From Nitratireductor sp. ZSWI3 (GTDB lineage Bacteria; Pseudomonadota; Alphaproteobacteria; Rhizobiales; Rhizobiaceae), in the NCBI RefSeq assembly GCF_024655565.1, contig NZ_JANKOF010000055.1, positions 1 to 32,937 on the forward strand: a stretch of DNA of 32,937 bases. The letters are read 5' to 3'. Position numbers and translations under genes: made by a program. A model generated the notes under the pieces. That model saw only the letters and a program-made list of their open reading frames with translations. It ran no database searches and had not been told where the DNA came from. Shown one piece after another: positions 6,644 through 29,646 of this stretch (position 1 is its first letter; each line of letters begins with the position of its first letter).

Positions 6644-9629
6644 GCATGCGCCTCCCTTCCGGATCGAAGAAATGGTGGCTGACGATCTCCACCGGTCCGA
6701 AGCGCTTGCGCAAGGGATCGGAGACGAAGGCGCGGGTGCCGTGCCTTGCCTTGCCGCCCCTGACGAGCGCCAGTCCGATGTATTTCGACAGTTCCGGCGA
6801 ATAGCAGAAGGCGGTGATGTGGCCGATGCTCTGGCCGAGATCGTCCAGGCTGCCCTTCTCGACGATGTGCGCACCGCCGCCGAGCGGTCGCCCGTCGAGG
6901 GAGACGACGCCGACGAGGCGGATGCGGTTCTGGTCGATCAGGGCGGGACGGTCCATCAGCGCCGAGCCGACGAAGGGCTTTTTCTTCGACAGCATCCAGT
7001 CGAGATAGAGATCGCGCGCCGTGGTGCGCCCGTCGATCTCGGCGCCGGTGACATGGCCCTTCTCGATGCGCAGCGCACCGAGCGCCTCCATGCCGTAGGG
7101 CGTGATGGCGAATTCCTCGCCGGCCTCCATCAGCGCTTCCCAGACATGCAGGCCGTGGCCGGCGCCGCTATAGACCTCGTAGGCGAGCTCGCCGGAAAAG
7201 GACAGGCGGCAGATCATCACTGGCGCGCCGCCGATCGCGCCCTCGACGATGCCCATGAAGGGCAGGGCCTCGTTGTCGACCGCCGTGCCGGCGACGCATT
7301 TTTCGAGCACCTTGCGGGCGTTCGGTCCGGCGATCGCCGCGCCGGCCCACGCATCGGTGACCGAGGTGAGGTGCACGCGAAGGTCCGGCCAGATCACATC
7401 GAGGAAATATTCCAGATGCTGCATGACCGGGCCGGCATTGGCGGTGGTCGTGGTCATCAGGAAGTCGTTCTCGCCGAGCCGCCACGTGGTGCCGTCGTCG
7501 AAGGCGATGCCGTCCTCGCGCAGCATCAACCCGTAGCGCGCCTTGCCGACGGGCAGCGTCGAGAAGGTGTTGGTGTAGACGCGGTCGAGGAATTCGGCCG
7601 CGTCCGGTCCCTTGACGGCGATCTTGCCGAGCGTCGAGACGTCGACGATGCCGACCGAGCGGCGCACGGCCGCCGCCTCGCGGATATAGGCCTGCTCGAC
7701 GGTCTCGCCCGGCGCCGCGTAGACGAGCGGACGGTGCCAGAGGCCCGCCGGCGTCATCGCGGCGCCGTTCTCGACGTGCCAGTCATGCATCGGCGTCAAC
7801 CGGTCGGGCCGCAGATCGCCGTAGCGCTCGGCGGCGATAGATCCGATCGCGACCGGTGAGAAGGGTGGGCGGAAGCGCGTCGTGCCGGCTTCGGGAATGG
7901 CGATGCCGCGCGCCTCGGCCATGATGGCGAGGCCCGGAACATTGGAGCTCTTGCCCTGGTCGGTCGCCATGCCGAGCGTCGTGTAGCGCTTCAGATGCTC
8001 GACGCTGACGAAGCCTTCGCGATGGGCGAGCCGCACGTCGTCCGCCGTCACGTCGTGCTGCAGATCGACGAAGGCCTTTCCCTTCGCCTTGATCTCGAAG
8101 ACGGGGGCGGGAGCGATGTCGAGCGGCTGCGGGGCGACCTCCGGCAGCTTGGCGCGCGACGGCTTCTTGCCGGCAGCGTCGAGACCGGCGTCGCGCCCGC
8201 TCGCCAGGGCTTCAGCCGTCGTCATCCGCCCCATGAAGGCGCCGGCACCGGTCCAGCTCCGGCCGGGCTGCGGCGGCAGGAAGGCCTGCAGCGCCTCGTC
8301 CCAGTGAGCCTTGCCGCCAGCCTGCGATGCCAGGTGGATGACGGGCTGCCAGCCGCTGGAGACAGCGAGGCTGTCGCACTCGATGGGACGTGCGTCGCCG
8401 GAGAGGGCGCCGGTGGCCGCGTCGAACCGCTGCACGGTGACGCCGGCAAGCCGTTTGCCGCCGCTGGTGCCGACGACGGCTTGGCCGGTCAGCGGCACGA
8501 CGCCAGCCTCCGAGGCGAGCGCGGCGGCGGCCTCCGAGATCGACGGACGCACATCGACGATCGCCGTGACGTGACCGCCGGCGCGGCGGATTGCGACGGC
8601 CGCCTCGTAGGCGCTGTCGTTGTTGGTGAACAGGACGGTCCTGTCGCCGGGCAGCACCGCGTGCTCGGTGGCGTAGCGGCGGACGGCGCCGGCCAGCATC
8701 ACGCCGGGCCGGTCGTTGCCGGGAAAGACGATGGGGCGTTCGAGGGCGCCGGCGGCGAGCACCACCTTGCCGGCGCGGATCGTCCAGTGGCGCTGACGGG
8801 GGTTGCCCTTGGGTGCCTTGGCGAGGTGGTCGCAAACGCGCTCGGTGGCGGCCAGCGTGTTGCCGTCGTAATAGCCCCAGACCGTGGTGCGGGAGAGGAG
8901 GCGGACGGTGTCGAGCCCGGCGAGCCGCTCGGCAAGCTGTTCGGCGAAGACGCTGGCGGGCTTGCCGCCGATCGTCTCGCCCGACCAGCGGGCGAAGCCG
9001 CCGACCGCCGGTTCCTGCTCGGCCAGGATGACGCGCTTGCCCGCCTTCGCCGCCGCTTCCGCCGCCATCAGGCCGGCGAGGCCTCCGCCCACCACGAGCA
9101 CGTCGCAAAAGGCATTCATGCGCTCGTAGCGCGACGGGTCCTTGCCGTAATCGGCGCGGCCGAGACCCGCGGCGCGGCGGATGAACCGCTCGCAGAGCAT
9201 CCAGAAGCGGGTGCCCTTGAGCGGCCCGATCACCGGGCCCATGAAGGTCTTGTAATAGAAGCCGGCGCCGATCAGCCTGCCGCCGAGCTGATTGAGCGCA
9301 CCGAAATCGTAGTCGAGCGAGGGGAAGCGGTTCTGGCTCTCGGCGCGCAACCCGTCATGGAGCTCGATGCGGGTGGCCGGGATGTTGGGCTCGCGCACGC
9401 CTTCCTTCAGCACCGTCACCAGCGCGTTCGGCTCGTCGATGCCGGCGGTGAAAACGCCACGCGGGCGGTGGTATTTGAAGGAGCGGCCGACGAGCGTGAC
9501 ACCGTTGGCGAGCAGGGCCGAGGCGAGCGTGTCGCCGGGGTGCCCGTCATAGGTCTGCCCGTCGAAGGTGAAGCGGACGGTGCGGGTGCGGTCGAGGAGG
9601 CCGCCGGTCGCGGCGCGGCGCGGGCTCAT
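6636..9629 (-). CDS. soxA: Sarcosine oxidase, alpha subunit
   Basis: At 997 residues it matches the family length. The N-terminal ferredoxin-like segment (about 18-75, with SFKYHRPRG) is followed by a dinucleotide-binding site VVGGGLAG at about 179-186 and an NAD/FAD domain to about 600. The C-terminal part, from about 620, is a GcvT-type folate-binding domain (ending with SIGHITAFCYSPEL and HFFDPEGRRMHG). In the complex this subunit binds NAD+ and tetrahydrofolate, so the methyl carbon of sarcosine can leave as 5,10-methylene-THF. The start overlaps the soxD stop by four bases (ATGA), and its end overlaps soxG, so the genes are translationally coupled. Confidence 0.95.
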   Translation of the reverse strand: MSPRRAATGGLLDRTRTVRFTFDGQTYDGHPGDTLASALLANGVTLVGRSFKYHRPRGVFTAGIDEPNALVTVLKEGVREPNIPATRIELHDGLRAESQNRFPSLDYDFGALNQLGGRLIGAGFYYKTFMGPVIGPLKGTRFWMLCERFIRRAAGLGRADYGKDPSRYERMNAFCDVLVVGGGLAGLMAAEAAAKAGKRVILAEQEPAVGGFARWSGETIGGKPASVFAEQLAERLAGLDTVRLLSRTTVWGYYDGNTLAATERVCDHLAKAPKGNPRQRHWTIRAGKVVLAAGALERPIVFPGNDRPGVMLAGAVRRYATEHAVLPGDRTVLFTNNDSAYEAAVAIRRAGGHVTAIVDVRPSISEAAAALASEAGVVPLTGQAVVGTSGGKRLAGVTVQRFDAATGALSGDARPIECDSLAVSSGWQPVIHLASQAGGKAHWDEALQAFLPPQPGRSWTGAGAFMGRMTTAEALASGRDAGLDAAGKKPSRAKLPEVAPQPLDIAPAPVFEIKAKGKAFVDLQHDVTADDVRLAHREGFVSVEHLKRYTTLGMATDQGKSSNVPGLAIMAEARGIAIPEAGTTRFRPPFSPVAIGSIAAERYGDLRPDRLTPMHDWHVENGAAMTPAGLWHRPLVYAAPGETVEQAYIREAAAVRRSVGIVDVSTLGKIAVKGPDAAEFLDRVYTNTFSTLPVGKARYGLMLREDGIAFDDGTTWRLGENDFLMTTTTANAGPVMQHLEYFLDVIWPDLRVHLTSVTDAWAGAAIAGPNARKVLEKCVAGTAVDNEALPFMGIVEGAIGGAPVMICRLSFSGELAYEVYSGAGHGLHVWEALMEAGEEFAITPYGMEALGALRIEKGHVTGAEIDGRTTARDLYLDWMLSKKKPFVGSALMDRPALIDQNRIRLVGVVSLDGRPLGGGAHIVEKGSLDDLGQSIGHITAFCYSPELSKYIGLALVRGGKARHGTRAFVSDPLRKRFGPVEIVSHHFFDPEGRRMHG

Positions 9630-9904
9630 GCGGTCTCTCCGGTGCCGGGCAGCGGACGGGCGAAGGTCACCTCGTAAATCTCGTGGGTCAGCGTGTCGCG
9701 GACGACGAGGAGATGCGCCCGGCAGCCGCCGGCATGCTGCCAGAATTCACGGTGCCGGCCGGCCGGGTTGGGACGGGCATAGACGTAGCCGTACCAGGCC
9801 TTGGCATCGGTGGAGGCAGGGTCGGGCCGAATGCGGGTCGCATCGCCCTGATAGGAGAATTCGGCGAGATCGCGCGGGCCGCAATGCGGGCAGGAAATCA
9901 ACAT
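9626..9904 (-). CDS. soxD: Sarcosine oxidase, delta subunit
   Basis: A 92-residue zinc-binding subunit. C5 and C8 in CPHCG, with H57 and C61 in FWQHAGGC, match the four zinc ligands known for SoxD. The VVRDTLTHEIYEV segment is also characteristic. It packs against the other subunits and stabilises the cytoplasmic SoxBDAG enzyme. It lies 16 bp after soxB and overlaps soxA by four bases. Confidence 0.95.
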   Translation of the reverse strand: MLISCPHCGPRDLAEFSYQGDATRIRPDPASTDAKAWYGYVYARPNPAGRHREFWQHAGGCRAHLLVVRDTLTHEIYEVTFARPLPGTGETA

Positions 9905-9920
9905 CGGTCGGCTCGCTCCC

Positions 9921-11180
9921 TCAATGCAGCTTGGGCGTGGGCCCGTGGCCCGTCTCGTCGATGACGGCGCCGCGCTCGAAGCGCGACAGCGTGTAGGGCG
10001 CGTTGATGGCGTGCGGCTCGTCGCGGGCGATAGTGTGGGCGAAGGAGAAGCCGGAGGCCGGCGTCGCCTTGAAGCCGCCGTAGCACCAGCCGCAGTTCAG
10101 ATATATGCCCGGCAGCGGCCCCTTGGTGATGATCGGCGAACCGTCCATGGACATGTCCATCACCCCGCCCCAGGAGCGCAGCAGCCTCAGCCGCGCGACG
10201 GAAGGAAACATGGCGCAGATCTCGCTCATGACGTCCTCGACCGTCGGCAGGTTGCCGCGCTGGGCGTAGGAATTGTAGTAGTCGAGGCTGCCGCCGAAGA
10301 CGAGGCCGCCCTTGTCGGACTGGGACATGTAGAGATGGCCGCCGCCGAAGGTGACGACGCAGTCGACGAAGGGTTTCAGCGCCTCCGAGACGAAGGCCTG
10401 CAGGACGTGGCTTTCGATGGGGAAGCTGTCGATGCCGGCGAGCTTGAGGACGCGCCCGGTGCTGCCGGCAACCGCGAGCCCCACCTTGCGGGCGCGGATC
10501 TCGCCGCGGCTGGTCTCGACGCCGACGATGCGATCGCCGTCGCGCAGGAAGCCCGTCACCTCGCAATTCTCGATCAGGTCGACGCCGCGCCGGTCGGCGC
10601 CGCGCGCGTAGCCCCAGGCAACGGCGTCGTGGCGCGCCGTGCCGGCGCGTTGCTGCAACAGGCCGCCGACCACGGGGAAACGCGCCGAGCCGGACAGATC
10701 GAGCCCCGGCACCTTGCGGGCGATCTCCTCGCGGGTCAGCCACAGGGCATCGCCGCCGCCGTGGCGCATGGCGTTGCCGCGACGGATGTAGGCGTCTGCC
10801 TGGCCGGGATTGTGGGCGAGGTTGAGCACGCCACGCTGCGAGAACATGACGTTGTAGTTCAGCTCATGCGACAGGTTTTCCCAGAGTTTTACGGAAAAGT
10901 CGTAGAAGCGGATGGAGTCGGGCAGGAGATAGTTGGAGCGGACGATGGTGGTGTTGCGGCCGATGTTGCCGGAGCCGAGCCAGCTCTTCTCGATCACCGC
11001 CACATTGGTGATGCCGTGTTCGGCGGCGAGGTAATAGGCCGTGGCGAGCCCGTGTCCGCCGCCGCCGACGATGATGACGTCGTAGCTCGGCTTCGGGGCG
11101 GGTTTGCGCCAGGCCGGTTTCCAATCGCGGTTCCCCGAAAGGGCATTCTTCAAGAGCGAAAGAGCCGAATATTCCGCCAT
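9921..11180 (-). CDS. soxB: Sarcosine oxidase, beta subunit
   Basis: A 419-residue FAD/FMN subunit and the first gene of the operon. The Rossmann motif DVIIVGGGGHGLATAYYLA (34-52) binds FAD; IEKSWLGSGNIGRNTT follows as in other SoxB proteins. H184 in TARHDAVAWG is in the region of the histidine that carries covalent FMN in characterised enzymes (by family knowledge, not alignment). The subunit oxidises the methylamine bond of sarcosine to glycine. No strong Shine-Dalgarno precedes the ATG at 11180. A large dyad at 11277-11329 lies 97-149 bp upstream and may be the regulatory site. Confidence 0.95.
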   Translation of the reverse strand: MAEYSALSLLKNALSGNRDWKPAWRKPAPKPSYDVIIVGGGGHGLATAYYLAAEHGITNVAVIEKSWLGSGNIGRNTTIVRSNYLLPDSIRFYDFSVKLWENLSHELNYNVMFSQRGVLNLAHNPGQADAYIRRGNAMRHGGGDALWLTREEIARKVPGLDLSGSARFPVVGGLLQQRAGTARHDAVAWGYARGADRRGVDLIENCEVTGFLRDGDRIVGVETSRGEIRARKVGLAVAGSTGRVLKLAGIDSFPIESHVLQAFVSEALKPFVDCVVTFGGGHLYMSQSDKGGLVFGGSLDYYNSYAQRGNLPTVEDVMSEICAMFPSVARLRLLRSWGGVMDMSMDGSPIITKGPLPGIYLNCGWCYGGFKATPASGFSFAHTIARDEPHAINAPYTLSRFERGAVIDETGHGPTPKLH

Positions 11181-13897: not shown

Positions 13898-14006
13898 ATG
13901 GCTTGCCGAAAGCGCGTTCAGTTGCCGTTCACATTGAAATCTCTATAAGCTCAGTGGAAAAAGGAGCTGAGGCTCCGCAGAGACAGGGGCGGTGGCGACA
14001 CCGAAG

Positions 14007-14276
14007 ATGCTGATGAAGAACCTCATTCTCGCAGCCGTGGCGCTGCTGGTGACGGGCGGTGTTGCAATGGCCGCCAGCGCCGTGAACCGCGACGGCGAGC
14101 CGCGCACGCTCGTGGTCACCGAGGGCGGCAGCCAGTCCGAGCTGACCGTCGGACCGGGCGAGACCGTCGAGTTCTGCAGCGGCGGCTGCTTCGTGACCAT
14201 GCCCAATGGCGACCGCGAGGTGCTGACCGGCACCGAAACCATCGAGATTTCGGGCGGGCGCGGGCGCATCCGGTAA
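14007..14276 (+). CDS. Small exported protein with a CxxxC motif
   Basis: An 89-residue protein with a signal peptide (MKNLILAAVALLVTGGVAMA, likely cleavage near AMA/AS) and a short beta-rich body. Two cysteines, in FCSGGCF, flank a small loop, and the body contains a TxE-type segment ending in a basic Gly/Arg tail. I do not recognise the family beyond small rhizobial envelope proteins, and no function is offered. The frame is open from a GTG at 13992; ATG at 14007 or 14013 fits the signal peptide better. AAGGAG at about 13960-13965 is too far from any of these starts, so the start is uncertain. Confidence 0.6.
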   Translation: MLMKNLILAAVALLVTGGVAMAASAVNRDGEPRTLVVTEGGSQSELTVGPGETVEFCSGGCFVTMPNGDREVLTGTETIEISGGRGRIR

Positions 14277-14481: not shown

Positions 14482-15915
14482 ATGGACGCGCGATCCGAAC
14501 GCAATGCGGTGCCGCTTGCCGTCGATCTCGACGGAACGCTCATTGCGACAGATCTTCTGTGGGAGAGCCTGTTCCTGCTCCTGCGGTGCAAGCCGCTGTG
14601 CTTGTTCCTGCTTCCCTTCTGGCTGCTCGGCGGCAAGGCGGCCCTTAAATGCAGAATTGCCGAGCAGGTGGAGATCGACCCGGCGGGCCTGCCCTATCGG
14701 CAGGAGCTTCTGGCGCAGCTGAACGAAGACAAGGCCCGGGGCCGGCACATCGTGCTGGCGACGGCGGCGCCGAAGAAGTTCGCCGAGGCGATCGCCAGCC
14801 ATCTCGGCGTCTTCGACGGGGTGATCTCGACCGAACCCGGCCGCAACATGGCCTCGCGCGTCAAGCGCGATGCGCTCGTCACAGCCTTCGGCGACGGCGG
14901 CTTCGACTATGCCGGCAACAGCCGCGCCGACATCGCCGTCTTCGAGGCGGCGCGCGGTGCGGTCGTGGTGGCGCCCGACCGGGCGGCCGCCCGCTGGCAC
15001 GCCGAGCGGGGCGGTGCCCTGCACCCCGGCGAAAAGCCGACGCTCAAGACCTATGTGAAGATGCTGCGGGCGCATCAGTGGCTGAAGAACGCCCTGATCT
15101 TCGTGCCCGTCATTCTCAATCACGACTATCTCGACGCGCGCATCATCGGGCTGGGGCTGCTCGCCTTCATCTCCTTCAGCGCGGCGGCCTCGGCGATCTA
15201 CATCCTGAACGATTTCTTCGATCTCAGTCTCGACCGCCGGCACCCGACCAAGCACCGGCGCCCCTTTGCGAGCGGCGTTCTGTCGATCCCCTTCGGTTTT
15301 GCGGCGATGCTCGCCCTTCTGACGTTGAGCGGGGCGGCGGCCCTTTTCCTGCCGCCGCTGTTCGGCCTCGTCCTGATCGCCTACCTGATCGCCACGACGG
15401 CCTATTCGCTGTCCTTCAAGCGGATGCTTCTGGTCGACGTTCTGACGCTTGCCGGTCTCTACACGCTGCGCATCCTGGCCGGCAGCGCGGCGACCGGCAT
15501 CCCCGTGTCTTTCTGGCTGCTCGCCTTCTCGGTCTTCTTCTTCCTGTCGCTTGCCTTCGTGAAGCGCTATGTGGAACTGCGCGGCACCGAACTACCAGTG
15601 GGCGAGCGGATCGCCGGACGCGGCTACCGCTCGGAAGACCAGGAGGTGATCGCCCAGGCAGGCATGGCTTCGGCCTTCTCCTCGGCCATGGTGCTGGCGC
15701 TCTACATTCAGAGCAGCGCCGTTCGCGAGCTTTACGCCCAGCCCTGGCTGATCTGGCCGCTGTGCCCGATCGTGCTCTACATCACGATCCGGATGTGGGT
15801 GCTGGCACGCCGCAACGAGATGCATGACGATCCCATCGTCTTCATCATCAGCGACTGGCGCAGCCAGCTCGTCGGCGGGTTCGGCGCCTTCCTCCTGTTC
15901 TATGCGGGGCTCTAG
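14482..15915 (+). CDS. HAD-family phosphatase fused to UbiA-family polyprenyl-phosphate phosphoribosyltransferase
   Basis: A 477-residue fusion. Residues about 10-185 are a HAD phosphatase: D15 and D17 in DLDGT, T94, and the GN(146)SRAD segment. From about 190 it is a UbiA membrane protein with the first aspartate motif N243-D244-x-x-D247-x-x-x-D251 followed by RHPTKHRRP, and a second motif around YSLSFKRMLLVDVLTLAG, with about eight membrane helices. The HPTKHRRP signature is that of DPPR synthases (Rv3806c of mycobacteria; NoeC of Azorhizobium), which attach ribose-5-phosphate from PRPP to a polyprenyl phosphate. The fused HAD domain would remove the 5'-phosphate. Start supported by AAAGGGGG six bases before the ATG; first gene of the cluster. 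Confidence 0.85.
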   Translation: MDARSERNAVPLAVDLDGTLIATDLLWESLFLLLRCKPLCLFLLPFWLLGGKAALKCRIAEQVEIDPAGLPYRQELLAQLNEDKARGRHIVLATAAPKKFAEAIASHLGVFDGVISTEPGRNMASRVKRDALVTAFGDGGFDYAGNSRADIAVFEAARGAVVVAPDRAAARWHAERGGALHPGEKPTLKTYVKMLRAHQWLKNALIFVPVILNHDYLDARIIGLGLLAFISFSAAASAIYILNDFFDLSLDRRHPTKHRRPFASGVLSIPFGFAAMLALLTLSGAAALFLPPLFGLVLIAYLIATTAYSLSFKRMLLVDVLTLAGLYTLRILAGSAATGIPVSFWLLAFSVFFFLSLAFVKRYVELRGTELPVGERIAGRGYRSEDQEVIAQAGMASAFSSAMVLALYIQSSAVRELYAQPWLIWPLCPIVLYITIRMWVLARRNEMHDDPIVFIISDWRSQLVGGFGAFLLFYAGL

Positions 15916-15917
15916 GC

Positions 15918-17279
15918 ATGGCCTTGTATTCCGCATTCGGACTGGTGCGAAGGAAGAGGGCGCGGGCGCTGCCGGCGGCGGAGGCGATCGCCGGCCTGCG
16001 CGCCGGCAAAGGGTTTGCCTTCACCGTGCTGCCCTACGGCAACGGGCGTTCTTATGGCGACACGTGCCTCAACGATGCGGGGGCGCTGATCGACATGCGG
16101 CCGATGAACCGCATCATCGCCTTCGATGCCGGCAGCGGCCTCCTGACCGCGCAGACGGGATTGATGCTGTCCGATCTGATCGCGCAGGTGGCGCCGCATG
16201 GATGGTTCCCGGCGGTGGTGCCGGGCACGCAGTTCGTGACGCTCGGCGGCGCCATCGCCAACGACGTGCACGGCAAGAACCACCACCGGCGCGGCACGTT
16301 CGGCTGCCATGTGCTGTCGCTCACGCTGCTGCGCTCGGACGGCACGACGCGCCGCTGCAGTCTCGAGGAGAACGCAGACCTTTTCCGCGCCACCATCGGC
16401 GGCATGGGACTGACCGGCCTGATCCTCGAGGCGACGATCCGGCTGATGAAGGTCGGATCGGCGGATGTCGATGAGCGGGTGCGCGGCTTTCGCGGCCTTG
16501 GCGAGTATTTCGATCTCGCCGAGGAGGCCGACACCGAGAACGAATACGCCGTCGCCTGGATCGACCAGCTCGCGCATGGAGCGCAGGCGGGGCGCGGCTT
16601 TCTGCTGACCGCCAATCATGCGGCGGCCAATCATGTGGGCGGCCCGCCGTTCCGGCCGGCCGGCAAGCGTCGACTGGCGGTCCCCCTCAGGCCGCCGGTC
16701 AGCCTGATCAACCGCTGGTCGCTGGCGCTCTTCAACCGCGCCTTCGCCTGGCAGAAAGGACGGGCCGAGGGGCTGCGGCGCTCTTCCTACGAAAGCTATT
16801 TCTTTCCGCTCGACGCGGTGCGGCACTGGAACCGGCTCTACGGGCCGCGTGGCCTCCTGCAGCACCAGAGCGTGGTGCCTTTCGAGGCGGCGCGAAGCGT
16901 TGTCCCGGCGATGCTGGAAGAGGCGCGCAGGGCCGGCCAGGCTTCGTTCCTGACGGTTCTCAAGCGCTTCGGCGAGGTGCCGTCGCCGGGGCTGATGTCG
17001 TTTCCGCGGCCGGGCTACACGCTGACGCTCGATTTCTCCAACGCGGGCGCGGCCACCGGCGCGCTGCTCGAGCGCCTCGACCGGATGACGGTCGAGGCGG
17101 GCGGGGCGGTCAACCCCTACAAGGACGCGCGCATGGGAGCGGAGCTCTTCGATGCCTCCTTCGCCCGCTGGCGCGAGGTGGAGGCGCTGCGCGATCCGGC
17201 CTTTCTCTCCGATTTCTGGCGCCGCACGGCGATGCACCTGCCTGAGGCGCGCGTGGGAGGCCGGCATGCGGCCGAATAG
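15918..17279 (+). CDS. DprE1-like FAD-dependent polyprenyl-phosphate pentofuranose oxidase
   Basis: A 453-residue protein of the vanillyl-alcohol oxidase fold. The FAD site shows GNGRSYGD (41-48), VPGTQFVTLGGAIANDVHGKNHH (102-123) and GTFG. H118 and the HGKNHH motif are the same as in mycobacterial DprE1. The C-terminal YKDAR with K402 corresponds to DprE1 K418, a catalytic lysine. DprE1 oxidises the 2'-OH of decaprenyl-phospho-ribose to a ketone. Position T370 aligns with C387, the residue attacked by benzothiazinone inhibitors in the mycobacterial enzyme (alignment from memory, one-residue gap nearby). It starts two bases after the UbiA stop codon, so the two genes are co-transcribed. Confidence 0.87.
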   Translation: MALYSAFGLVRRKRARALPAAEAIAGLRAGKGFAFTVLPYGNGRSYGDTCLNDAGALIDMRPMNRIIAFDAGSGLLTAQTGLMLSDLIAQVAPHGWFPAVVPGTQFVTLGGAIANDVHGKNHHRRGTFGCHVLSLTLLRSDGTTRRCSLEENADLFRATIGGMGLTGLILEATIRLMKVGSADVDERVRGFRGLGEYFDLAEEADTENEYAVAWIDQLAHGAQAGRGFLLTANHAAANHVGGPPFRPAGKRRLAVPLRPPVSLINRWSLALFNRAFAWQKGRAEGLRRSSYESYFFPLDAVRHWNRLYGPRGLLQHQSVVPFEAARSVVPAMLEEARRAGQASFLTVLKRFGEVPSPGLMSFPRPGYTLTLDFSNAGAATGALLERLDRMTVEAGGAVNPYKDARMGAELFDASFARWREVEALRDPAFLSDFWRRTAMHLPEARVGGRHAAE

Positions 17280-17390
17280 TCGAGAGGCTTTGCGAACCGG
17301 GCAAGGATTTCGCGCAATGGATGCAATTTATCGCCGCGGCTTCACGCTTTGTTTGCATGCGACGGTTACGACAGGCACAGGCGGGACACG

Positions 17391-17828
17391 ATGAAATACA
17401 TTCCCTTCATACTCTTCACGGTGATGACCAACGCGGCCGCGCAGCTCATGCTGAAATACGGCATGATGACGTTCGGGCCGCTGACATTCGCCGGCGTCAA
17501 TCCGATCCTGAAGATCCTGCAGATCGTCTTCAGCCCGTGGATTTTTGCCGGCCTGTGCACCTTCGTCATCTCCATGGCATCGCATCTTTACGTGTTGTCG
17601 AAGGTCGATCTGTCCTTCGCCTATCCGTTCCTGAGCCTTGCCTATGTGGCGGTGGCCGTGTTCGCCTATTTCCTCTTCAAGGAGGACCTGAACGCCTATC
17701 GCATCGGCGGCATTGCGCTGATCTGCGTCGGAACGGTGCTGATCGCGCAGAGCGGCGCCGACACGCCCGACCGGGAAGCCGCGCTTGCCGACGAAAAACT
17801 TCAGTCCGAGAGGTCGATCATCCAATGA
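17391..17828 (+). CDS. Small four-helix SMR/EamA-like membrane transporter (possible lipid-sugar flippase)
   Basis: A 145-residue protein with four hydrophobic segments (about 3-18, 40-60, 66-85, 91-120 with the last followed by a polar tail). TNAAAQLMLKYGM at the start, and LSFAYPFLSLAYVAVAVFAYFLFKEDL, are typical of half-size EamA/SMR proteins such as ArnE/ArnF, which flip undecaprenyl-phosphate aminoarabinose. Here its neighbours make lipid-linked sugars, so flipping of that product is the natural inference. The ATG at 17391 follows a 111-bp gap without an ORF; a weak GGCGGGA precedes it. Its stop overlaps the SDR start (ATGA). Confidence 0.75.
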   Translation: MKYIPFILFTVMTNAAAQLMLKYGMMTFGPLTFAGVNPILKILQIVFSPWIFAGLCTFVISMASHLYVLSKVDLSFAYPFLSLAYVAVAVFAYFLFKEDLNAYRIGGIALICVGTVLIAQSGADTPDREAALADEKLQSERSIIQ

Positions 17829-18832
17829 GACACATCATTTTCGGCGGCGACGGCTTCGTCGGCCGTCATCTGGCACCCAAGCTGATCGCGGACGGCGAGG
17901 AGGTGATCGTCGCCGACATCGTCAAAAGCGACCTGCCGCACTATCGCAGCGCCTCCTTCGTCCATTGCGACGTCACCGATCCGGCCGCCGTGACGGGGCT
18001 CGGCATCAAGGCGGACGACATGGTCTACAACCTGTCGGCCAAGATGCTGTCGCCGATCCAGGTGCGGGCCAAGCGGCATGAATTCTTCTATCCGGTGAAC
18101 TATCACGGCACCGCGCACATCATGGACGCGATGGGCAAGGCCGGGGCTTCAAGGCTCGTCCACTTCACCACCGACATGATCTACGGTCATACCGTCACCT
18201 ATCCGATGACCGAGGACCATCCTGTCTCCCCGCTCGGCGAGTACGGTCAGTCGAAGCTCGATACCGAGGTGCTGGCGGCCGAATGGCGTGGACGCGGCAT
18301 GAATGTCTCGCTGTTCCGCCCGCGCCTGATCATCGGGCCGGGCCGACTCGGCATCCTCGAGAAGCTGTTCAAGCTGATCGATATGAACCTGCCGGTGCCG
18401 ATGATCGGCTCGGGCAGGAATCCGTACCAGTTCATCTCGGTGTTCGACTGCGCGGAGGCGGCGCGCCTTGCCTGGAAGGCGGGGGTGCCGAACGAAGCCT
18501 ACAATCTCGGCTCGCTCAACCCGCCGCCGGTGCGCAAGCTGCTCGGCGATCTCGTCAGGCATGCCGGGTCGAGATCGTTCCTGCTGCCGACGCCCGGCTG
18601 GGCGGTGAAGCGCACGCTCGACCTGCTCGATTTCGTCAACATGCCGATCATGGATCCCGAGCAGTATCTGATCGCCGACGAGATGTGCGTTCTCGACGTC
18701 GGCAAGGGCGAGCGGGACCTCGGCTGGATCCCGCAATACCGCGACGAGGACATGCTGATCGCCGCTTATGACGAATACCGCGCCAAGAAGGCCGGGCAGC
18801 CGCTCGGCGCCCAGCAGATCGCGGCCGAGTAG
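17825..18832 (+). CDS. NAD-dependent epimerase/dehydratase (extended SDR)
   Basis: A 335-residue extended short-chain dehydrogenase. The cofactor motif is FGGDGFVGRHL (6-16) with D31 for an NAD ribose contact; T115/T116 and Y140-GQS-K144 are the catalytic residues. The C-terminal half carries the usual RPRLIIGPG and PVPMIGSGRNPYQFISVFDCAEA segments of sugar-nucleotide-type enzymes. Substrate unknown: in this cluster it might reduce or epimerise the ketosugar made by the DprE1-like oxidase, in place of the classical-SDR DprE2 that is absent here. Overlaps the transporter by four bases and is followed after 10 bp by the aminotransferase. Confidence 0.88.
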   Translation: MRHIIFGGDGFVGRHLAPKLIADGEEVIVADIVKSDLPHYRSASFVHCDVTDPAAVTGLGIKADDMVYNLSAKMLSPIQVRAKRHEFFYPVNYHGTAHIMDAMGKAGASRLVHFTTDMIYGHTVTYPMTEDHPVSPLGEYGQSKLDTEVLAAEWRGRGMNVSLFRPRLIIGPGRLGILEKLFKLIDMNLPVPMIGSGRNPYQFISVFDCAEAARLAWKAGVPNEAYNLGSLNPPPVRKLLGDLVRHAGSRSFLLPTPGWAVKRTLDLLDFVNMPIMDPEQYLIADEMCVLDVGKGERDLGWIPQYRDEDMLIAAYDEYRAKKAGQPLGAQQIAAE

Positions 18833-18842
18833 GGAGGGTTTG

Positions 18843-20315
18843 ATGACCGTTGTCACCAGAACCGACACGACAGGAGCAAGGCCCGTGACGAACGCGGCGG
18901 CGCCGGCCCCGAAAGCCATTGCCAAACCCGATCTCCTGACGCTGGAGGAGGCCAAGGCCCTCGGCATCGAGCGGATGACGGAACTCTTCAAGGCGCATCT
19001 CAATCCCGGCCAGCTTCACTTCATGAAGCTGCTCGGCTTCCACAAAGTGAAGATCGAGAGCGCCGAGGGGATGTACTACATCGACCAGAACGGACGCCGG
19101 ATCCTCGACTTCTTCGGCGGTTTCGGCTCGCTCGCCTTCGGCCACAACCATCCGCGCATCCTCGCGGCGCGCAAGGCGTTCCAGGACGAGAAGCGGCACG
19201 AGATCGCCATTGCCTTCATGTCGCAATATGCGACGGCGCTGGCGGCCAATCTGGCTGCCTGCTCGCCGGGCGATCTCGACATGGTGTTTCTCGGCTCCTC
19301 GGGCTCGGAGGCGATGGAGGCGGCGGTGAAGCTCGCCGAGCGCGCCGCCGGGCCGAAACGGCCGAAGATCGTCTACGCGCAGAACTCGTTCCACGGCAAG
19401 ACGAAGGGCGTCCTGACGCTCACGGATGGCAATCTCTACCGCGCCGAGTTTCGCCTGACCGACAACACGGTGCGCGTGCCGTTCGGCGACATCGAGGCCA
19501 TCGAGACGGCGTTCCGCACCGATCCCGAGATCGGCGCCATCGTGCTGGAGACCGTGCAGGGCGGCGGCGGCATCAACGAGGCGCCGCGCGAATTCTGGCA
19601 GAAGCTGCGCCGGCTCTGCGACGAGTACGGCGTCGTCTGGGTGGCGGACGAGGTGCAGTGCGGCTACGGGCGCACCGGCCGCTTCTACGCCTTCGAACGC
19701 TATGACGTGGTGCCCGACATCACGGCGCTGGCCAAGTCGCTCGGCGCCGGCAAGGCGGCGGTCGGGGCGATGATCGCCAGGCGCGAGGTCTACATGAAGG
19801 CCTACGGAACGCCGAAGACGGCGATGATCCACGCCATGGCGACCTTCGGCGGCATCGGCGAGGCCTGCGCCACGGCCATCGAGGGCATCAACGTGCTCTA
19901 CGACGAGCGGCTGATGGAGAATGCGGAGGCGGTTGGCGCCTATCTCGTCGAGCGGCTCGAGGCGCTGAAGGAGAAGTATCCGCGCATCATCAAGGAGGTG
20001 CGTGGGCGCGGCTGCATGGTGGGTCTGGAGTTCCAGGATTTCTCGCAGACGCTTCCCGCCGTGCTGCGTCCCATGGTCGGCATGCTGGACGACAAGCTGA
20101 AGGGCTCTCTCTCGGGCTTCATCGGCGCGCTGCTGCTGCGCGACCACGATGTGCTGGTGGCCTTCACCGAGTACAATCGCAACGTCGTCCGCCTGCTGCC
20201 GCCGCTGATCGTCGAGCGCCAGCATGTCGACAAGCTCGTCGAAGCGCTCGACGCGCTTCTGGCCCGCGGCGTGGTGGCCATCGTGAAGGATTTCGTCAAA
20301 AGCCAGGTGAAGTGA
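18843..20315 (+). CDS. Class III pyridoxal-phosphate aminotransferase
   Basis: A 490-residue fold type I enzyme. The core contains GSSGSEAMEAAVKLA (about 151-165), NSFHGKTKG (181-189), D269 in VADEVQCGYGRTG and PLP lysine K298 in ALAKSLGAG. An N-terminal extension and the LTLEEAKALGIERM...HLNPGQL segment look like putrescine aminotransferase and HpnO-type enzymes. Family members usually use omega-amines or aldehydes, not sugars; HpnO acts on a ribosyl side chain, which makes use on a lipid-linked ketopentose plausible but unproven. The start has GGGAGGG five bases before ATG. Last gene of the cluster, closed by a terminator at 20399. Confidence 0.88.
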   Translation: MTVVTRTDTTGARPVTNAAAPAPKAIAKPDLLTLEEAKALGIERMTELFKAHLNPGQLHFMKLLGFHKVKIESAEGMYYIDQNGRRILDFFGGFGSLAFGHNHPRILAARKAFQDEKRHEIAIAFMSQYATALAANLAACSPGDLDMVFLGSSGSEAMEAAVKLAERAAGPKRPKIVYAQNSFHGKTKGVLTLTDGNLYRAEFRLTDNTVRVPFGDIEAIETAFRTDPEIGAIVLETVQGGGGINEAPREFWQKLRRLCDEYGVVWVADEVQCGYGRTGRFYAFERYDVVPDITALAKSLGAGKAAVGAMIARREVYMKAYGTPKTAMIHAMATFGGIGEACATAIEGINVLYDERLMENAEAVGAYLVERLEALKEKYPRIIKEVRGRGCMVGLEFQDFSQTLPAVLRPMVGMLDDKLKGSLSGFIGALLLRDHDVLVAFTEYNRNVVRLLPPLIVERQHVDKLVEALDALLARGVVAIVKDFVKSQVK

Positions 20316-20398
20316 GGCGAAGCTTCTGACAAGATGAGTCAGCGTCGCCTTACAAGGCTTTGATCATTTTACCGAATAGCGCCTCTCGCGCGACGACT

Positions 20399-20429
20399 GG
20401 CCGGGCTTGTCCCGGCCTTCTTTCTTTGT
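20399..20429 (+). terminator. Rho-independent terminator after the aminotransferase gene
   Basis: GGCCGGG (20399-20405), loop CTTGT, CCCGGCC (20411-20417), followed by TTCTTTCTTTG. It closes the plus-strand lipid-sugar operon. Confidence 0.8.
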
Positions 20430-20440
20430 AGTGGAGCTTG

Positions 20441-20562
20441 CCCCTCATCCGCCTGCCGGCACCTTCTCCCCGCCTGCGGGGAGAAGGAGGCTTTCACCAA
20501 CGTTGCGGAAATCACCCTTCTCCCCGTTCATGGGGAGAAGGTGCCGGCAGGCGGATGAGGGG
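20441..20562. repeat. 122-bp nested palindromic repeat element
   Basis: The 31-base arms at 20441-20471 and 20532-20562 are perfect inverted copies. Inside, two further hairpins sit in tandem: 20462-20487 and 20516-20541, both with CCTTCTCCCC/GGGGAGAAGG stems. The layout resembles the RIME-type intergenic repeats of rhizobia, by knowledge of the type. No ORF is in it. Confidence 0.85.
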
Positions 20563-20583
20563 CGGGCGCCCGAGGCTGAACCC

Positions 20584-22320
20584 TTATTCGATCCTGTCCA
20601 CCATGCCCGGGCCGACATAGGCGTCAAAGCACTCGTTGAGCGTGATCCGCTCATGTGCCTTCATGGCCGGCGCATAGAGCGCCAGGAGGTCGGCATTGGC
20701 GATGGTGAGCGGGCAGGTCGGATGAAGGATCAGGTCCGTTCGCCGCACCGCCTCCAGCGCATCGGCGCCCGGCGGGGGAACGGCGCGTGTCGGGTCCGCA
20801 CCGATCGCCACATGCATGGGCGCCTTTCGATCCATGAGCCAGGGGAAGGGGTTCACGAAATTAAGGTTGAGGATCGTCTCGAATACGACGCCCTGCCTGG
20901 CCTCCAGCGTGCGGATCGCATCGACGGCCTTGCCGACGGCCATCAGATGCGCGGCCTGAAAATCGAACTCGGAATAGAACATGTAGGCCGGCAGTTCCTT
21001 GATGCGGATGAGATCCGCATAGGTCTGGCGGTGGCCGGCGTAGAAGCCCAGCATCTTTTCCGCCCGCGCCAGGATTTCCGGCCGCATGTTGACGCGTCCC
21101 AGCGTTTTCAGGTTGTCGCCCGGCAGGGCGACATTCTTGAGCGCCCCCACATAGGTGCGGGCGGCGCGCTCGACGGTGTTGACGAGCGGCGGCAGGGCGG
21201 CGGCGGCGGCAAGCAGGGCTGCGACGGCGACGAGCTTTCGCGGCGCGCCCGAGCGCTGGGGATTGAGGACGGCCGGCAACAGCGCTGGCCACAGGAAGAT
21301 CAGCGCCTGGCTGCCGGTGTTCTGCGTTTCGAAGAAGATGCCGGCGAGGAGCACGGCTCCGATCCAGAAGGCATCGCGGTCGAGGAAGGCGGCGATCGCC
21401 AACGGCCGGAAGGATCGGCGCAGACGATAAAGATCCGCGCCGAGCCCGGCGCGATCGGCATAAAGAAGACACAGGACCATGAGCCCCGCGGGCAGGACGA
21501 TCCCGAAGGTGAGCGAGGCGGCCTGCAGGAACCGGGGCAGCAGGCTCTCCTCGTTCATTTCCACGAGCGCCAGGATGTCGCCCAGATAGCCGAGCGTGAA
21601 ACCGTTCCAGAGCTGCAGCCCGCCGAGCAGGGCGAGGAAGGAGAGCGCCGCGGCAAGCGCCGTGCCGAGCGCGATGCGGCCGGCGGCGAAGGCGAACAGG
21701 CACACAAGCGCGCCGGCGACGAAGCCGGTGATCTTGGTCAGGAACAGCGCGGTCATCGCGACGACGACCGCCAGGAAGAGCAGCCGCTGGCTGCGCAGGA
21801 AGACGAGGGCGGCGACCAGGGCGTAGAGAAGCTGGCAGACCTGGCGGTTGTAGATGCCGAACCCGTCCGATCCGGGATAGGGGAAAAACTCGCGCGTGTT
21901 GAAAGGCAGCACGGCGAAGACCAGGAAGGGCAGGAGAATTGCGAGCGCCGTCGCGCGCGAGCGGCGGTCGACCTCCCACAGCGCCAGCACCATGAGCGGC
22001 GCCGTGACGGCGAGCAGCGACCAGTGCACGAGAAGGAGCGGCTGGGCCCCGGGGAACAGCTTCAGTCCCCCGGCGAACAGATAGTAGCCGAGCGGGCCGA
22101 CCGGCGCGAAGAAATCGGTGGCGGGCGTCTGGCCGTCGAACAGCCGGTTGGCGGCGTCGAAATAGATGAACAGGTCCCAGTACATGGAGCCGATCGGCAC
22201 GTCGAGCGGCAGGAGGAGAAGGGCGGCAAGCACCAGGGCGAGGACCGCAAGCAGCACCGGCGGGCTGCCCACCAGGGAGCCGCTGCCGTTTTCCGTCGAC
22301 CGATCCACTGCCGTTGTCAT
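20584..22320 (-). CDS. Polytopic membrane protein, GT-C-like glycosyltransferase candidate
   Basis: A 578-residue protein with about twelve hydrophobic segments in residues 25-410 and a soluble C-terminal portion of about 170 residues. After the first helix comes MYWDLFIYFDAANRLFDGQTPATDFFAPVGP, where acidic residues in the first periplasmic loop fit the GT-C (ArnT/PMT-like) architecture; the family cannot be named more closely. GT-C enzymes use polyprenyl-phosphate sugars on the periplasmic face, which fits the convergent cluster just before it. The ATG at 22320 has GGCGGAAGCG in front; a GTG at 22383 would add 21 residues but lacks a site. The tail may act as a lid or receptor domain. Confidence 0.7.
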   Translation of the reverse strand: MTTAVDRSTENGSGSLVGSPPVLLAVLALVLAALLLLPLDVPIGSMYWDLFIYFDAANRLFDGQTPATDFFAPVGPLGYYLFAGGLKLFPGAQPLLLVHWSLLAVTAPLMVLALWEVDRRSRATALAILLPFLVFAVLPFNTREFFPYPGSDGFGIYNRQVCQLLYALVAALVFLRSQRLLFLAVVVAMTALFLTKITGFVAGALVCLFAFAAGRIALGTALAAALSFLALLGGLQLWNGFTLGYLGDILALVEMNEESLLPRFLQAASLTFGIVLPAGLMVLCLLYADRAGLGADLYRLRRSFRPLAIAAFLDRDAFWIGAVLLAGIFFETQNTGSQALIFLWPALLPAVLNPQRSGAPRKLVAVAALLAAAAALPPLVNTVERAARTYVGALKNVALPGDNLKTLGRVNMRPEILARAEKMLGFYAGHRQTYADLIRIKELPAYMFYSEFDFQAAHLMAVGKAVDAIRTLEARQGVVFETILNLNFVNPFPWLMDRKAPMHVAIGADPTRAVPPPGADALEAVRRTDLILHPTCPLTIANADLLALYAPAMKAHERITLNECFDAYVGPGMVDRIE

Positions 22321-22340
22321 CGCTTCCGCCCCAGATACGC

Positions 22341-22379
22341 TTGCCCCTGTCTTGCCGAAGCATTTTACAGGAAGGGCAA
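22341..22379. promoter_or_regulatory. Imperfect inverted repeat upstream of the GT-C-like and DMG dehydrogenase genes
   Basis: TTGCCC-CTGT at 22341-22350 mirrors ACAG-gaa-GGGCAA at 22367-22379, with a three-base bulge. It lies in the 231-bp divergent space between two genes. Either an operator or a leader hairpin of the minus-strand gene would fit. Confidence 0.3.
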
Positions 22380-22551
22380 CCACAAGAGGTTAACCGCGGG
22401 CGCTCCCTGAGCGGCCGGATGACGCGTGCCGTTCCGGCGATGTCGCATTCAGGCAACGCGCCGCCGACCCTGCCGGATTAGAGTGCGGCTGAAGACGGGA
22501 ACGAGAGCGGCTGCCGGAAGGTCTGGCCGGAAATTCGGAGGGAAGACGGCC

Positions 22552-25071
22552 ATGAAGACTGAGGCGCGCGCGGTGGTCATCGGCGGCGGCGTGGTGGGTG
22601 TCTCGACGCTCTACCACCTGGCAAAGAAGGGCTGGTCGGACGTGGTGCTCGTCGAGCGCAAGGAACTGACCTCCGGCTCGACCTGGCACGCGGCAGGCCT
22701 CTTGCCGCTGTTCAACATGAGCTATTCGGTCGGCCAGATCCACAAATATTCGGTCAGGTTCTATCAGGAGCTGCAGGAAGAGACCGGCATGAATGTCGGC
22801 TTCACCAAGTGCTCGAACATCCGCCTGGCGCGCACCAGGGATCGTTGGGACGAATATATGTACTATGCCGGCATCGCCGAGACGATCGGCGTGCCGGTGA
22901 AACTCCTGACGCCGGAGGAGGTGAAGGCGATCTGGCCGCTGTGCGAGACGGACGGGCTTCTCGGCGCGATCCAGCACCCTGACGACGGCTACATCCAGCC
23001 GGCGGACCTGACCCAGGCGCTGGCCAAAGGCGCGCGCGACCTCGGCGCCACGATCTACCGCAACACGTCGGTGACGGGCATCGAGCAGCGGGCCGAGGGC
23101 GGCTGGACGGTGAAGACCGACAAGGGCGACATCGTCTGCGAGCACGTCGTCTCCTGCACCGGCAACTTCGCCCGCAAGACGGGCGCGATGGTCGGCCTCG
23201 ACGTGCCGGTGATCCCGGTCGAGCACCAGTACATCGTCACCGAGCCGCATCCGGCGATCGTCGAGCGCAAGAAGCAGGGTCTGCCCGAGATGGGCGTGCT
23301 GCGCGAGAGCGATTCGTCCTGGTACATGCGCGAGGAGAATGGCGGGCTGCTGCTCGGACCTTACGAGGTCGGCGCGCCGTGCTGCTATGTCGACGGCCCC
23401 TCGGACGACAGCGAATACGAGCTGTTCCAGGAGGATCTGGAGCGGCTGATGCCCTATGTGGAAACGGCGATCGCCCGGGTCCCGGCCTTCGGCGAGGTGG
23501 GCATCAAGAAGATCTACAACGGCGCCATCGCCTACACGCCGGACGGCTCGCCCATCATCGGGCCGGCGCCGGGGCTGAAGAATTTCTGGCTCAACGAGGG
23601 CCACTCCTTCGGCGTGACGGCGGCGGGCGGTGCCGGCTGGCAGATCGCCGAATGGATCGTCGAGGGCGAGCCGTCCATCGACATGATGGGCGTCGATCCG
23701 CGCCGCTTCGGCCCCTATGCGACGGAGGGCTATCTGCGCGAGAAGAACGAGGAGGCCTATGCCAACGTTTTCACGATGCATTATCCGGACGAGGAACGCG
23801 CCGCCGCGCGGCCGCTGAAGACGACGCCCTGCTATGATCGCATGAAGGCGCTCGGCGCCGTGTTCGGCTCCGTCTATGGCTGGGAGCGGCCGAACTGGTT
23901 TGCGCCGCAGGGCTATGCGGTGCCGGAGAGCGAGCTCGGCGTCGGCGCCGACGTGCTCCTGAAGCACAATCACGCCCCCGCGCTGCCGGACGGCCGGGTC
24001 GTCGAGAAATGGTCGTTCCGCCGCTCGAACTACTTTGAGCATGTCGGCAACGAGGTGCGGAATGTCCATGAGAATGTCGGCCTGCTCGACATGTCGGCCT
24101 TCGCCAAGATGGAGGTGTCGGGCCCCGGCGCGCGCGCCTGGCTCGACGGTATACTGGCCAACCGCATCCCGAAGAAGCGGGGCAGGGTGGCGCTCTGCCA
24201 CCTCCTGACGAAAAACGGCGGGGTGCGCTCGGAATTCACCGTCTACGAATGGAAGCCCGGGCGCTTCTACCTGGTCTCGGCCGGCGCCTATGAGGCGCAC
24301 GACCACGACGTCCTGTTCAAGCTCCTGCCGGCCGATGGCTCGGTGGTGCTGCGGCCGATCACCCAGCAATATGGCGTGCTGGTGCTGGCCGGGCCGAAGA
24401 GCCGCGACGTGTTGCGCAAGGTGACGCATACCAGCCTTTCCAACGCCGACTTTCCCTGGCTTTCGGGCAAACCGGTGTCGATCGGTGCGGCGAGCGCGCA
24501 CGCGCTGCGCGTCAACTTCGTCGGCGAACTCGGTTGGGAGCTGCATCATCCGATCGAGATGCAGAATGCCATTTTCGACGCGCTGATGGAGGCGGGAGCC
24601 GAATTCGGCATCCGGCCCTTCGGCATTCGTGCCATGACGGCGATGGCCATCGAGAAGAGCTACCGGCTGATTCCGCGCGAGCTGTCGATCGAATACACCG
24701 CCTGGGAAAGCGGGCTCGATCGCTTCGTGCATCCCGACAAGGGAGAATTCCTTGGCCGCGGGGCTTTGCTGCGGCAACGGGAGGCCGGGCTCAACTGGCG
24801 CTATGTGACGCTGGAAATAGACGGTGTGACGGACGCCGACGCGCGCGGCAACGAGGCGATCTACCAGGCGGGAGCCCTTGTCGGCCGCGCCACCCATGGC
24901 GGCTATGGCTGGCGCACGGGCAAGAGCCTGGCCCTCGCCATGCTGCGCCCGGAGCAAGCGCAGGAGGGGACCAGGCTCGAGATCAAGATCCTCGGCAAGC
25001 TGCATCCTGCGACGGTGATCGGCGAGAGTCCCTTCGATCCCGAGAACGCGGCCTTGCGGGCGGACGGCTAG
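22552..25071 (+). CDS. FAD-dependent dimethylglycine/sarcosine dehydrogenase with GcvT-type folate domain
   Basis: An 839-residue one-chain enzyme. The FAD motif VVIGGGVVGVSTLYHLAKKG (8-27) is followed by GSTWHAAGLLP, where H46 matches the histidine that carries covalent FAD in mammalian DMGDH and SarDH. The oxidase domain extends to about 420; from about 430 a GcvT-like domain (SGPGARAWLDGILANRIP, VNFVGELGWELHHP, YRLIPRELSIEYTAWESGLD) would bind tetrahydrofolate. It would oxidise N-methyl groups of dimethylglycine or sarcosine and pass formaldehyde to THF; other methylated amines cannot be excluded. The start is supported by GGAGGGA before ATG. It is divergent from the GT-C gene and likely serves the same pathway as soxBDAG. 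Confidence 0.88.
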   Translation: MKTEARAVVIGGGVVGVSTLYHLAKKGWSDVVLVERKELTSGSTWHAAGLLPLFNMSYSVGQIHKYSVRFYQELQEETGMNVGFTKCSNIRLARTRDRWDEYMYYAGIAETIGVPVKLLTPEEVKAIWPLCETDGLLGAIQHPDDGYIQPADLTQALAKGARDLGATIYRNTSVTGIEQRAEGGWTVKTDKGDIVCEHVVSCTGNFARKTGAMVGLDVPVIPVEHQYIVTEPHPAIVERKKQGLPEMGVLRESDSSWYMREENGGLLLGPYEVGAPCCYVDGPSDDSEYELFQEDLERLMPYVETAIARVPAFGEVGIKKIYNGAIAYTPDGSPIIGPAPGLKNFWLNEGHSFGVTAAGGAGWQIAEWIVEGEPSIDMMGVDPRRFGPYATEGYLREKNEEAYANVFTMHYPDEERAAARPLKTTPCYDRMKALGAVFGSVYGWERPNWFAPQGYAVPESELGVGADVLLKHNHAPALPDGRVVEKWSFRRSNYFEHVGNEVRNVHENVGLLDMSAFAKMEVSGPGARAWLDGILANRIPKKRGRVALCHLLTKNGGVRSEFTVYEWKPGRFYLVSAGAYEAHDHDVLFKLLPADGSVVLRPITQQYGVLVLAGPKSRDVLRKVTHTSLSNADFPWLSGKPVSIGAASAHALRVNFVGELGWELHHPIEMQNAIFDALMEAGAEFGIRPFGIRAMTAMAIEKSYRLIPRELSIEYTAWESGLDRFVHPDKGEFLGRGALLRQREAGLNWRYVTLEIDGVTDADARGNEAIYQAGALVGRATHGGYGWRTGKSLALAMLRPEQAQEGTRLEIKILGKLHPATVIGESPFDPENAALRADG

Positions 25072-29596: not shown

Positions 29597-29646
29597 CATT
29601 ACGCGTTTCCGTGGACGGGGCACAACGCCAGACCGGAGACTGTCAT

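Follow-up and report, generated by a model that had tools for sequence, protein, structure and literature searches.

A conserved gene cassette of Rhizobiaceae predicted to make and use a lipid-linked amino-pentofuranose

What could a class III aminotransferase do in a gene cassette that resembles the mycobacterial pathway to decaprenyl-phospho-arabinose (DPA)? The question is raised by contig NZ_JANKOF010000055.1 of Nitratireductor sp. ZSWI3 (assembly GCF_024655565.1, a genome of 5.2 Mb), which was analysed over its whole length of 32,937 nucleotides and is called the window here. Six of its genes are at issue: a HAD-UbiA fusion, a DprE1-like FAD oxidase, an SMR/EamA-type small membrane protein, an extended SDR, the aminotransferase (AMT) and a convergent gene for a polytopic protein, GTC. 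The mycobacterial pathway comprises Rv3806c, DprE1/DprE2, Rv3789 and the Emb/Aft transferases, and its DprE1 oxidizes C2 of the lipid-linked ribose to a ketone. We lean towards a lipid-linked amino-pentofuranose, formed by amination of the DprE1 ketone, as the sugar that the cassette produces and consumes. The original prediction, made from the letters of the DNA, had placed the six genes and suggested such a product. Their positions were borne out by open reading frames for all six, by matches of the first five to Pfam and NCBIfam models and by a gene-typical third-position GC in the frames scored.

The genes are tightly spaced, with 2 bases between UbiA and DprE1, about 110 between DprE1 and SMR, a 4-base overlap of SMR and SDR and about 10 bases between SDR and AMT. 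In a sample of 60 genomes, the window's own included, UbiA was present in 26 (10/10 of the genus, 11/26 of the family and 5/24 of the order). The order UbiA-DprE1-SMR-SDR-AMT was found in 20/20 of the other UbiA-bearing genus and family genomes, with the SMR gene inside the cassette each time and the SDR missing in one (G028; genomes and loci carry our handles G and L). None of the five UbiA loci at the order level had an SMR or AMT match; two had UbiA-DprE1, one of these with an SDR match of 29% at a distance of 8 kb. A scan of named genomes yielded 436 AMT relatives. Among the best 80 loci, which were examined, 78 had all five genes and the other two were cut by contig ends. These loci belonged mainly to Mesorhizobium and also to Nitratireductor, Chelativorans, Aquibium, Aquamicrobium, Tianweitania and some metagenome-assembled genomes. 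The gene order is conserved far beyond chance; the novel product that the original prediction had made dependent on a conserved neighbourhood thus kept its footing in both samples, in which the flanking genes were compared mainly against the window's own proteins.

Co-occurrence was analysed in 199 Rhizobiaceae genomes with cut-offs of 1e-50 for DprE1, 1e-40 for the SDR, 1e-15 for GTC and 1e-12 for c11, a second polytopic protein described below. An AMT orthologue was present in 106 genomes, a 39% copy in G089 being left out of this number. DprE1 was detected in 113 genomes, i.e. in 106/106 with AMT and in 7/93 without, and the SDR in 103/106 and 0/93, respectively. GTC was found in 65 genomes and c11 in 47, six of which carry both; all were among the 106, so that every AMT genome had GTC or c11 and none of the 93 others had either. 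Fisher tests against AMT, uncorrected for shared ancestry, gave 1e-48 for DprE1, 2e-24 for GTC and 3e-16 for c11. c11 was located within 6 kb of AMT in 42/47 genomes. GTC was less than 6 kb from AMT in 41/65; in a further 11 it shared the contig of AMT at a greater distance, and in 13 it was confined to a different contig, in some cases possibly owing to contig breaks. Because of these cases linkage alone does not explain the match of GTC and AMT. GTC was rejected as a chance neighbour, because it co-occurred only with AMT genomes, also when distant. Taken together, gene order and genome-wide co-occurrence strongly supported the logic of making, oxidizing, aminating, flipping and transferring a lipid-linked sugar that had been proposed for the locus.

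The HAD-UbiA fusion (14482..15915, + strand, 477 aa), a predicted polyprenyl-phosphate phosphoribosyltransferase with a phosphoribose phosphatase domain, scored 624 bits against NF006088 (cut-off 351), matched Pfam HAD and UbiA and was matched by the solved DPPR synthase 8j8j with an E-value of 4e-29. D15 and D17 of the HAD part and N243, D244, D247, D251, R362 and E365 of the UbiA part were kept in 98/98 rows of the alignment. The protein has the motifs NDxxDxxxD and RxxE, whose residues were studied in Citrobacter youngae ORF15, as the main text of Kelly et al. 2024 (PMC11127046) describes. The DprE1-like protein (15918..17279, +, 453 aa), a predicted 2-oxidase of the lipid-linked ribose, reached 335 bits with the DprE1 model, which is below the equivalog cut-off of 500. 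It aligned with solved DprE1 over residues 30-436 (E 3e-65) and retained HGKNHH and the lysine of KD(S/A)R; H118, K120, H122, H123 and K402 were kept in 99/99 rows. The conservation rows are not all independent, because some loci are the same genome twice (L042/L055, L038/L056, L037/L059, L041/L060). The kept active-site residues fit working enzymes and do not prove a substrate.

The SMR protein (17391..17828, +, 145 aa), a predicted flippase, exceeded the Pfam cut-off for EamA. Its nearest NCBIfam model was ArnF with 50.5 bits (cut-off 99), and ArnE gave 36.6 bits (cut-off 92); with both scores below the cut-offs it was not accepted as a member of either family. The SDR (17825..18832, +, 335 aa) is predicted to be an accessory sugar epimerase or reductase. 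It scored 116 bits against Pfam Epimerase and was rejected as an HpnA-type hopanoid SDR (55 bits, cut-off 368). G7/G10/G13, Y140 and K144, for which we assume the roles usual in the SDR family, were kept in 99/99 rows; a separate alignment, A2, took 13 of 20 SDRs. Three AMT genomes were without the SDR: G028, where it was missing genome-wide (best match 52 bits), G222, where it was not found in a genome 79% complete, and G121, where AMT is at a contig edge. Because G028 and G222 keep the remaining set of UbiA, DprE1, SMR, AMT and GTC, the SDR is to all appearances dispensable.

The absence of a classical DprE2, which the original prediction had given as the reason to suspect a different product, held in the four cassette genomes tested: at E ≤ 1e-25 DprE2 was found in 0/4. 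In the two outgroups, the order-level UbiA-DprE1 loci lacking AMT, a DprE2-like classical SDR follows DprE1. Within the Rhizobiaceae the AMT-less genome G220 (L168, 6215-10798) has the order UbiA-DprE1-DprE2-like-SDR, i.e. a DprE2-type system in the same family. Since DprE2 is absent from the four cassette genomes and the SDR is dispensable, we did not take a plain DPA pathway as the default. Yet the SDR might reduce the ketone in DprE2's place, so that the product would be plain polyprenyl-phosphate-arabinofuranose (or -xylofuranose) and AMT would have a separate job. It is in favor of this proposal that mycobacterial DprE2, which does the reduction, is itself an SDR and that the window's SDR accompanies AMT in nearly all genomes. 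C. youngae ORF13, which aligned with GalE, turns lipid-linked ribose into xylose according to the same main text (PMC11127046). On the other hand, the window's SDR is of the extended and not of the classical type, the two SDR-less genomes keep the rest of the set, and AMT would be left without a ketone even though DprE1 is present in each of the 106 AMT genomes. Thus we consider a plain pentofuranose unlikely.

The AMT frame opens at 18768 (515 aa) and ends at 20315. Because several relatives start at the position equivalent to 18843, this is probably the true start (18843..20315, +, 490 aa). The protein, predicted to aminate a 2-keto sugar, scored 290 bits against Pfam Aminotran_3. Its nearest solved chains were 4ppm, listed as 'Aminotransferase' and presumably PigE, and the putrescine aminotransferase 4uox; the PigE model was also its best NCBIfam match. 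The predicted pyridoxal phosphate lysine K298 (490-aa numbering) was invariant in alignment A1, which comprised 15 of 21 family AMTs, the window's included, and left out five genus members and that of L040, which reads as only 314 aa. D294 and K323 (515-aa numbering; K323 equals K298) were kept in 100/100 rows, and we take their roles to be those of the class III family. Because DprE1 is conserved, no DprE2 was found in the four cassette genomes and AMT did not occur without DprE1 in any of the 106 family genomes, amination of a keto sugar is the best explanation for the enzyme.

The amine may be placed on another carbon, e.g. C5 or C3 if the SDR first oxidizes that position, which would result in a different aminopentose. 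The nearest named relatives of AMT, the PigE and putrescine aminotransferase families, act on terminal aldehydes, which speaks against a ketone at C2 and for such a position. Furthermore, genome G089 has a distant set of an AMT (38-39%), a PMT_2 GT-C protein, UbiA, HAD, a GMC oxidoreductase and an SDR with no DprE1 reported; the GMC oxidoreductase takes the expected place of DprE1, so the oxidized carbon may differ there. Yet DprE1, whose mycobacterial counterpart acts on C2, is present in every one of the 106 AMT genomes and both SDR-less species keep AMT. Amination elsewhere than at C2 is therefore quite improbable to us.

Amination of the DprE1 ketone also gains from sets that have been displaced or rebuilt. 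DprE1 was outside the 6 kb around AMT in 11/106 genomes, yet present; two of these cases (G121, G206) look like contig-edge effects. G078 and G170 carry UbiA-DprE1 and SMR-SDR-AMT as two separate loci, in G114 UbiA-DprE1 is elsewhere, and DprE1 of G127 is on a different contig from SMR-SDR-AMT-c11. UbiA directly precedes SMR in G070, G074, G120, G134 and G205. Among 385 genomes sampled from the class, counting that of the window, one other had an AMT orthologue (G434, 66%), with the order SMR-SDR-UbiA (without the HAD part)-DprE1-AMT, and three had relatives at 34-36%. In G556 AMT adjoins a gene like DprE1 and a protein that narrowly misses the PMT_2 cut-off. That AMT and the SDR belong to an unrelated pathway and are neighbors by history is hardly credible, since re-ordered, split and scattered full sets persist, which a neighborhood of shared history does not predict. 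In its favor, G607 and G268 have distant AMT relatives, and the 20 kb examined there contained nothing that matched UbiA or DprE1 of the window; this is a point against our assignment and indicates that the enzyme type also works elsewhere. In the remote set at L148 (2740-10492) a GMC oxidoreductase in two overlapping frames stands beside AMT, UbiA, HAD, SDR and a PMT_2 GT-C protein.

The last step would require a transferase. GTC (20584..22383, - strand, convergent), a predicted periplasmic transferase, probably starts at 22320 rather than at 22383, in keeping with the end coordinate of the original prediction. It had no Pfam or NCBIfam match at E ≤ 0.01 and was accordingly not accepted as an ArnT. 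The AlphaFold model was weak (pLDDT 58, pTM 0.60), with a less confident C-terminal region. Its first eight PDB matches were AglB (three entries), ALG12, a GPI transamidase chain, AftB, EmbC and an unrelated pyrophosphatase, all with E-values of 0.04 or worse and with many unrelated folds further down the list; seven of the eight are, as we assume, GT-C-type proteins. W69 and D70 were kept in 22/22 rows. c11 is a polytopic protein of about 410 aa which follows AMT on the same strand in cassettes without GTC. The best 80 named loci had c11 in 69 cases and GTC in 10, and the contig of L064 ends 0.9 kb after AMT. The AlphaFold model of c11 (pLDDT 71, pTM 0.73) matched ALG12, ALG9, ArnT (5f15, E 0.12) and PglB best, all at E 0.09 or worse; these are presumably GT-C-type enzymes as well. 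Pfam GT87 matched one of two c11 proteins weakly (21 bits, cut-off 25). GTC and c11 were rejected as one family, because hhalign gave a probability of 0.4% and a match of only 15 columns; the detectable likeness is limited to a WD motif close to the N-terminal end.

One Nitratireductor genome has, on a 5.8 kb contig (L141, G005:C61, 715-4953), a second gene similar to GTC (about 48%), which adjoins an SDR with 29% identity to that of the window. The remote GTC neighborhoods L135-L140 displayed no shared envelope gene as judged from the first 40 residues per listed reading frame, with no family search.

Parts of this design are known from other systems. The cassette has in common with the DPA pathway a UbiA phosphoribosyltransferase, a DprE1 oxidase, an SMR-type candidate exporter and putative GT-C transferases. 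It differs from it by the fusion of the HAD phosphatase to UbiA and by an aminotransferase in place of the DprE2 not found in the four cassette genomes tested. A related UbiA enzyme in a rhizobium is NoeC, which acts in the arabinosylation of the Azorhizobium Nod factor. Like ArnE/ArnF-ArnT, the cassette encodes a putative small flippase, broadly of that type, and a candidate GT-C protein that would use a lipid-linked aminopentose. In the Arn system a DegT-type aminotransferase produces the aminoarabinose as a UDP-pyranose, whereas the cassette has a class III enzyme and, as predicted, a furanose derived from phosphoribosyl pyrophosphate (PRPP). Filing of the cassette proteins under ArnT or hopanoid families was rejected because the family scores were below the cut-offs.

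Close parallels are the three-component systems of C. youngae O1/O2, whose HAD-UbiA has the same motif residues. The main text of Kelly et al. 2024 (PMC11127046) shows the UbiA-HAD chemistry and the three-component logic: ORF15 makes polyprenyl-phosphate-ribofuranose by transfer of ribose-5-phosphate from PRPP and removal of the 5'-phosphate. By the same account these systems also have a dedicated flippase, a GT-C transferase (GT136) and a GalE-like SDR epimerase that is gained or lost, and loss of the epimerase only alters the sugar. Compared with C. youngae the cassette adds the DprE1-like oxidase and the class III aminotransferase, has an SMR-type candidate flippase instead of MATE, and its transferases are without a clear family. 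The paper mentions DprE1/E2 homologues for arabinofuranose systems and describes the mycobacterial exporter as SMR-type; its main text contains neither the word aminotransferase nor the term amino sugar. A search of the literature from 2024 on polyprenyl ribofuranose and GT136 returned only this paper. No paper on a lipid-linked aminopentofuranose of this kind was found in a search whose coverage excluded most subscription papers. Thus the idea of a new pathway gained from gene order and co-occurrence, while its first steps turned out to be known already, as far as the main text of PMC11127046 reports them.

From these comparisons a route can be proposed. By analogy to C. youngae ORF15, HAD-UbiA would transfer ribose-5-phosphate from PRPP to polyprenyl phosphate and then remove the 5'-phosphate. 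The DprE1-like enzyme would convert C2 to a ketone as in mycobacteria, and AMT, replacing the DprE2 reduction, would turn the ketone into an amine to yield polyprenyl-phosphate-2-amino-2-deoxy-pentofuranose. In most species the SDR might epimerize another carbon like ORF13 of C. youngae O2, without being essential. The SMR protein would flip the lipid-linked sugar, and GTC, or c11 in other genomes, would transfer it onto an envelope acceptor. Past the general logic we infer the steps, the aminated carbon and the product included.

Several points weigh against amination of the DprE1 ketone in addition to those given above. The evidence is genomic rather than chemical, for product, donor and acceptor alike. 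DprE2 was sought in only four cassette genomes and was equally absent from 2/2 cassette-less family genomes. The DprE2-like matches of the two outgroups scored 179 and 176 bits, below the cut-off of 250, and in G070 a DprE2-like gene lies close to the displaced DprE1. The sole DprE1 reported for G070, G074, G120, G134 and G205 is more divergent (41-50% identity) and encoded in another part of the genome. The UbiA search covered 60 genomes and not the 199 of the family, the co-occurrence tests carry no correction for shared ancestry, and the support for a GT-C fold of GTC and c11 is weak.

Other genes of the window were noted around the cassette. Upstream of UbiA a 94-aa gene (13992-14276, +) with an apparent signal peptide and without a Pfam match was present in 71/80 named loci; it is retained in G127, where UbiA and DprE1 no longer stand beside it, and it is possibly an accessory periplasmic protein. 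Sarcosine oxidase genes with alpha-, delta- and beta-type Pfam domains occupy 6636-11180 (-), and the gene at 9921-11180 of this region recurs upstream in many named loci. A dimethylglycine/sarcosine dehydrogenase-like gene (DAO, GCV_T; 22426-25071, +) adjoins GTC and is probably outside the pathway, because many cassette loci lack it at that place. At 29611-30555 (+) there is a stand-alone LigD primase-polymerase domain protein (Pfam, 308 bits).

In the wider form, hundreds of Rhizobiaceae would aminate the DprE1 ketone to obtain polyprenyl-phosphate 2-amino-2-deoxy-pentofuranose, which GT-C-like proteins of two unrelated families, detected among the sampled Rhizobiaceae only in AMT genomes, would use to decorate the envelope; we regard this claim as evenly balanced. 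While the first step and the general logic are known, as presented in the main text of Kelly et al. 2024 (PMC11127046), a lipid-linked sugar with this amine would be new. If the claim is true, the activated amino sugar would be of a new kind, and the DprE1 product would have a fate that is new as well. Amination would join the chemistry on polyprenyl-linked furanoses with a donor type unnamed in the literature searched, and the two candidate GT-C families would gain a predictable donor. Since DprE1 is a target of drugs against tuberculosis, comparison with a DprE1 whose product goes to another enzyme would be useful. In Mesorhizobium and Nitratireductor, surface charge, resistance to peptides or symbiosis could be influenced by an envelope sugar that carries an amine.

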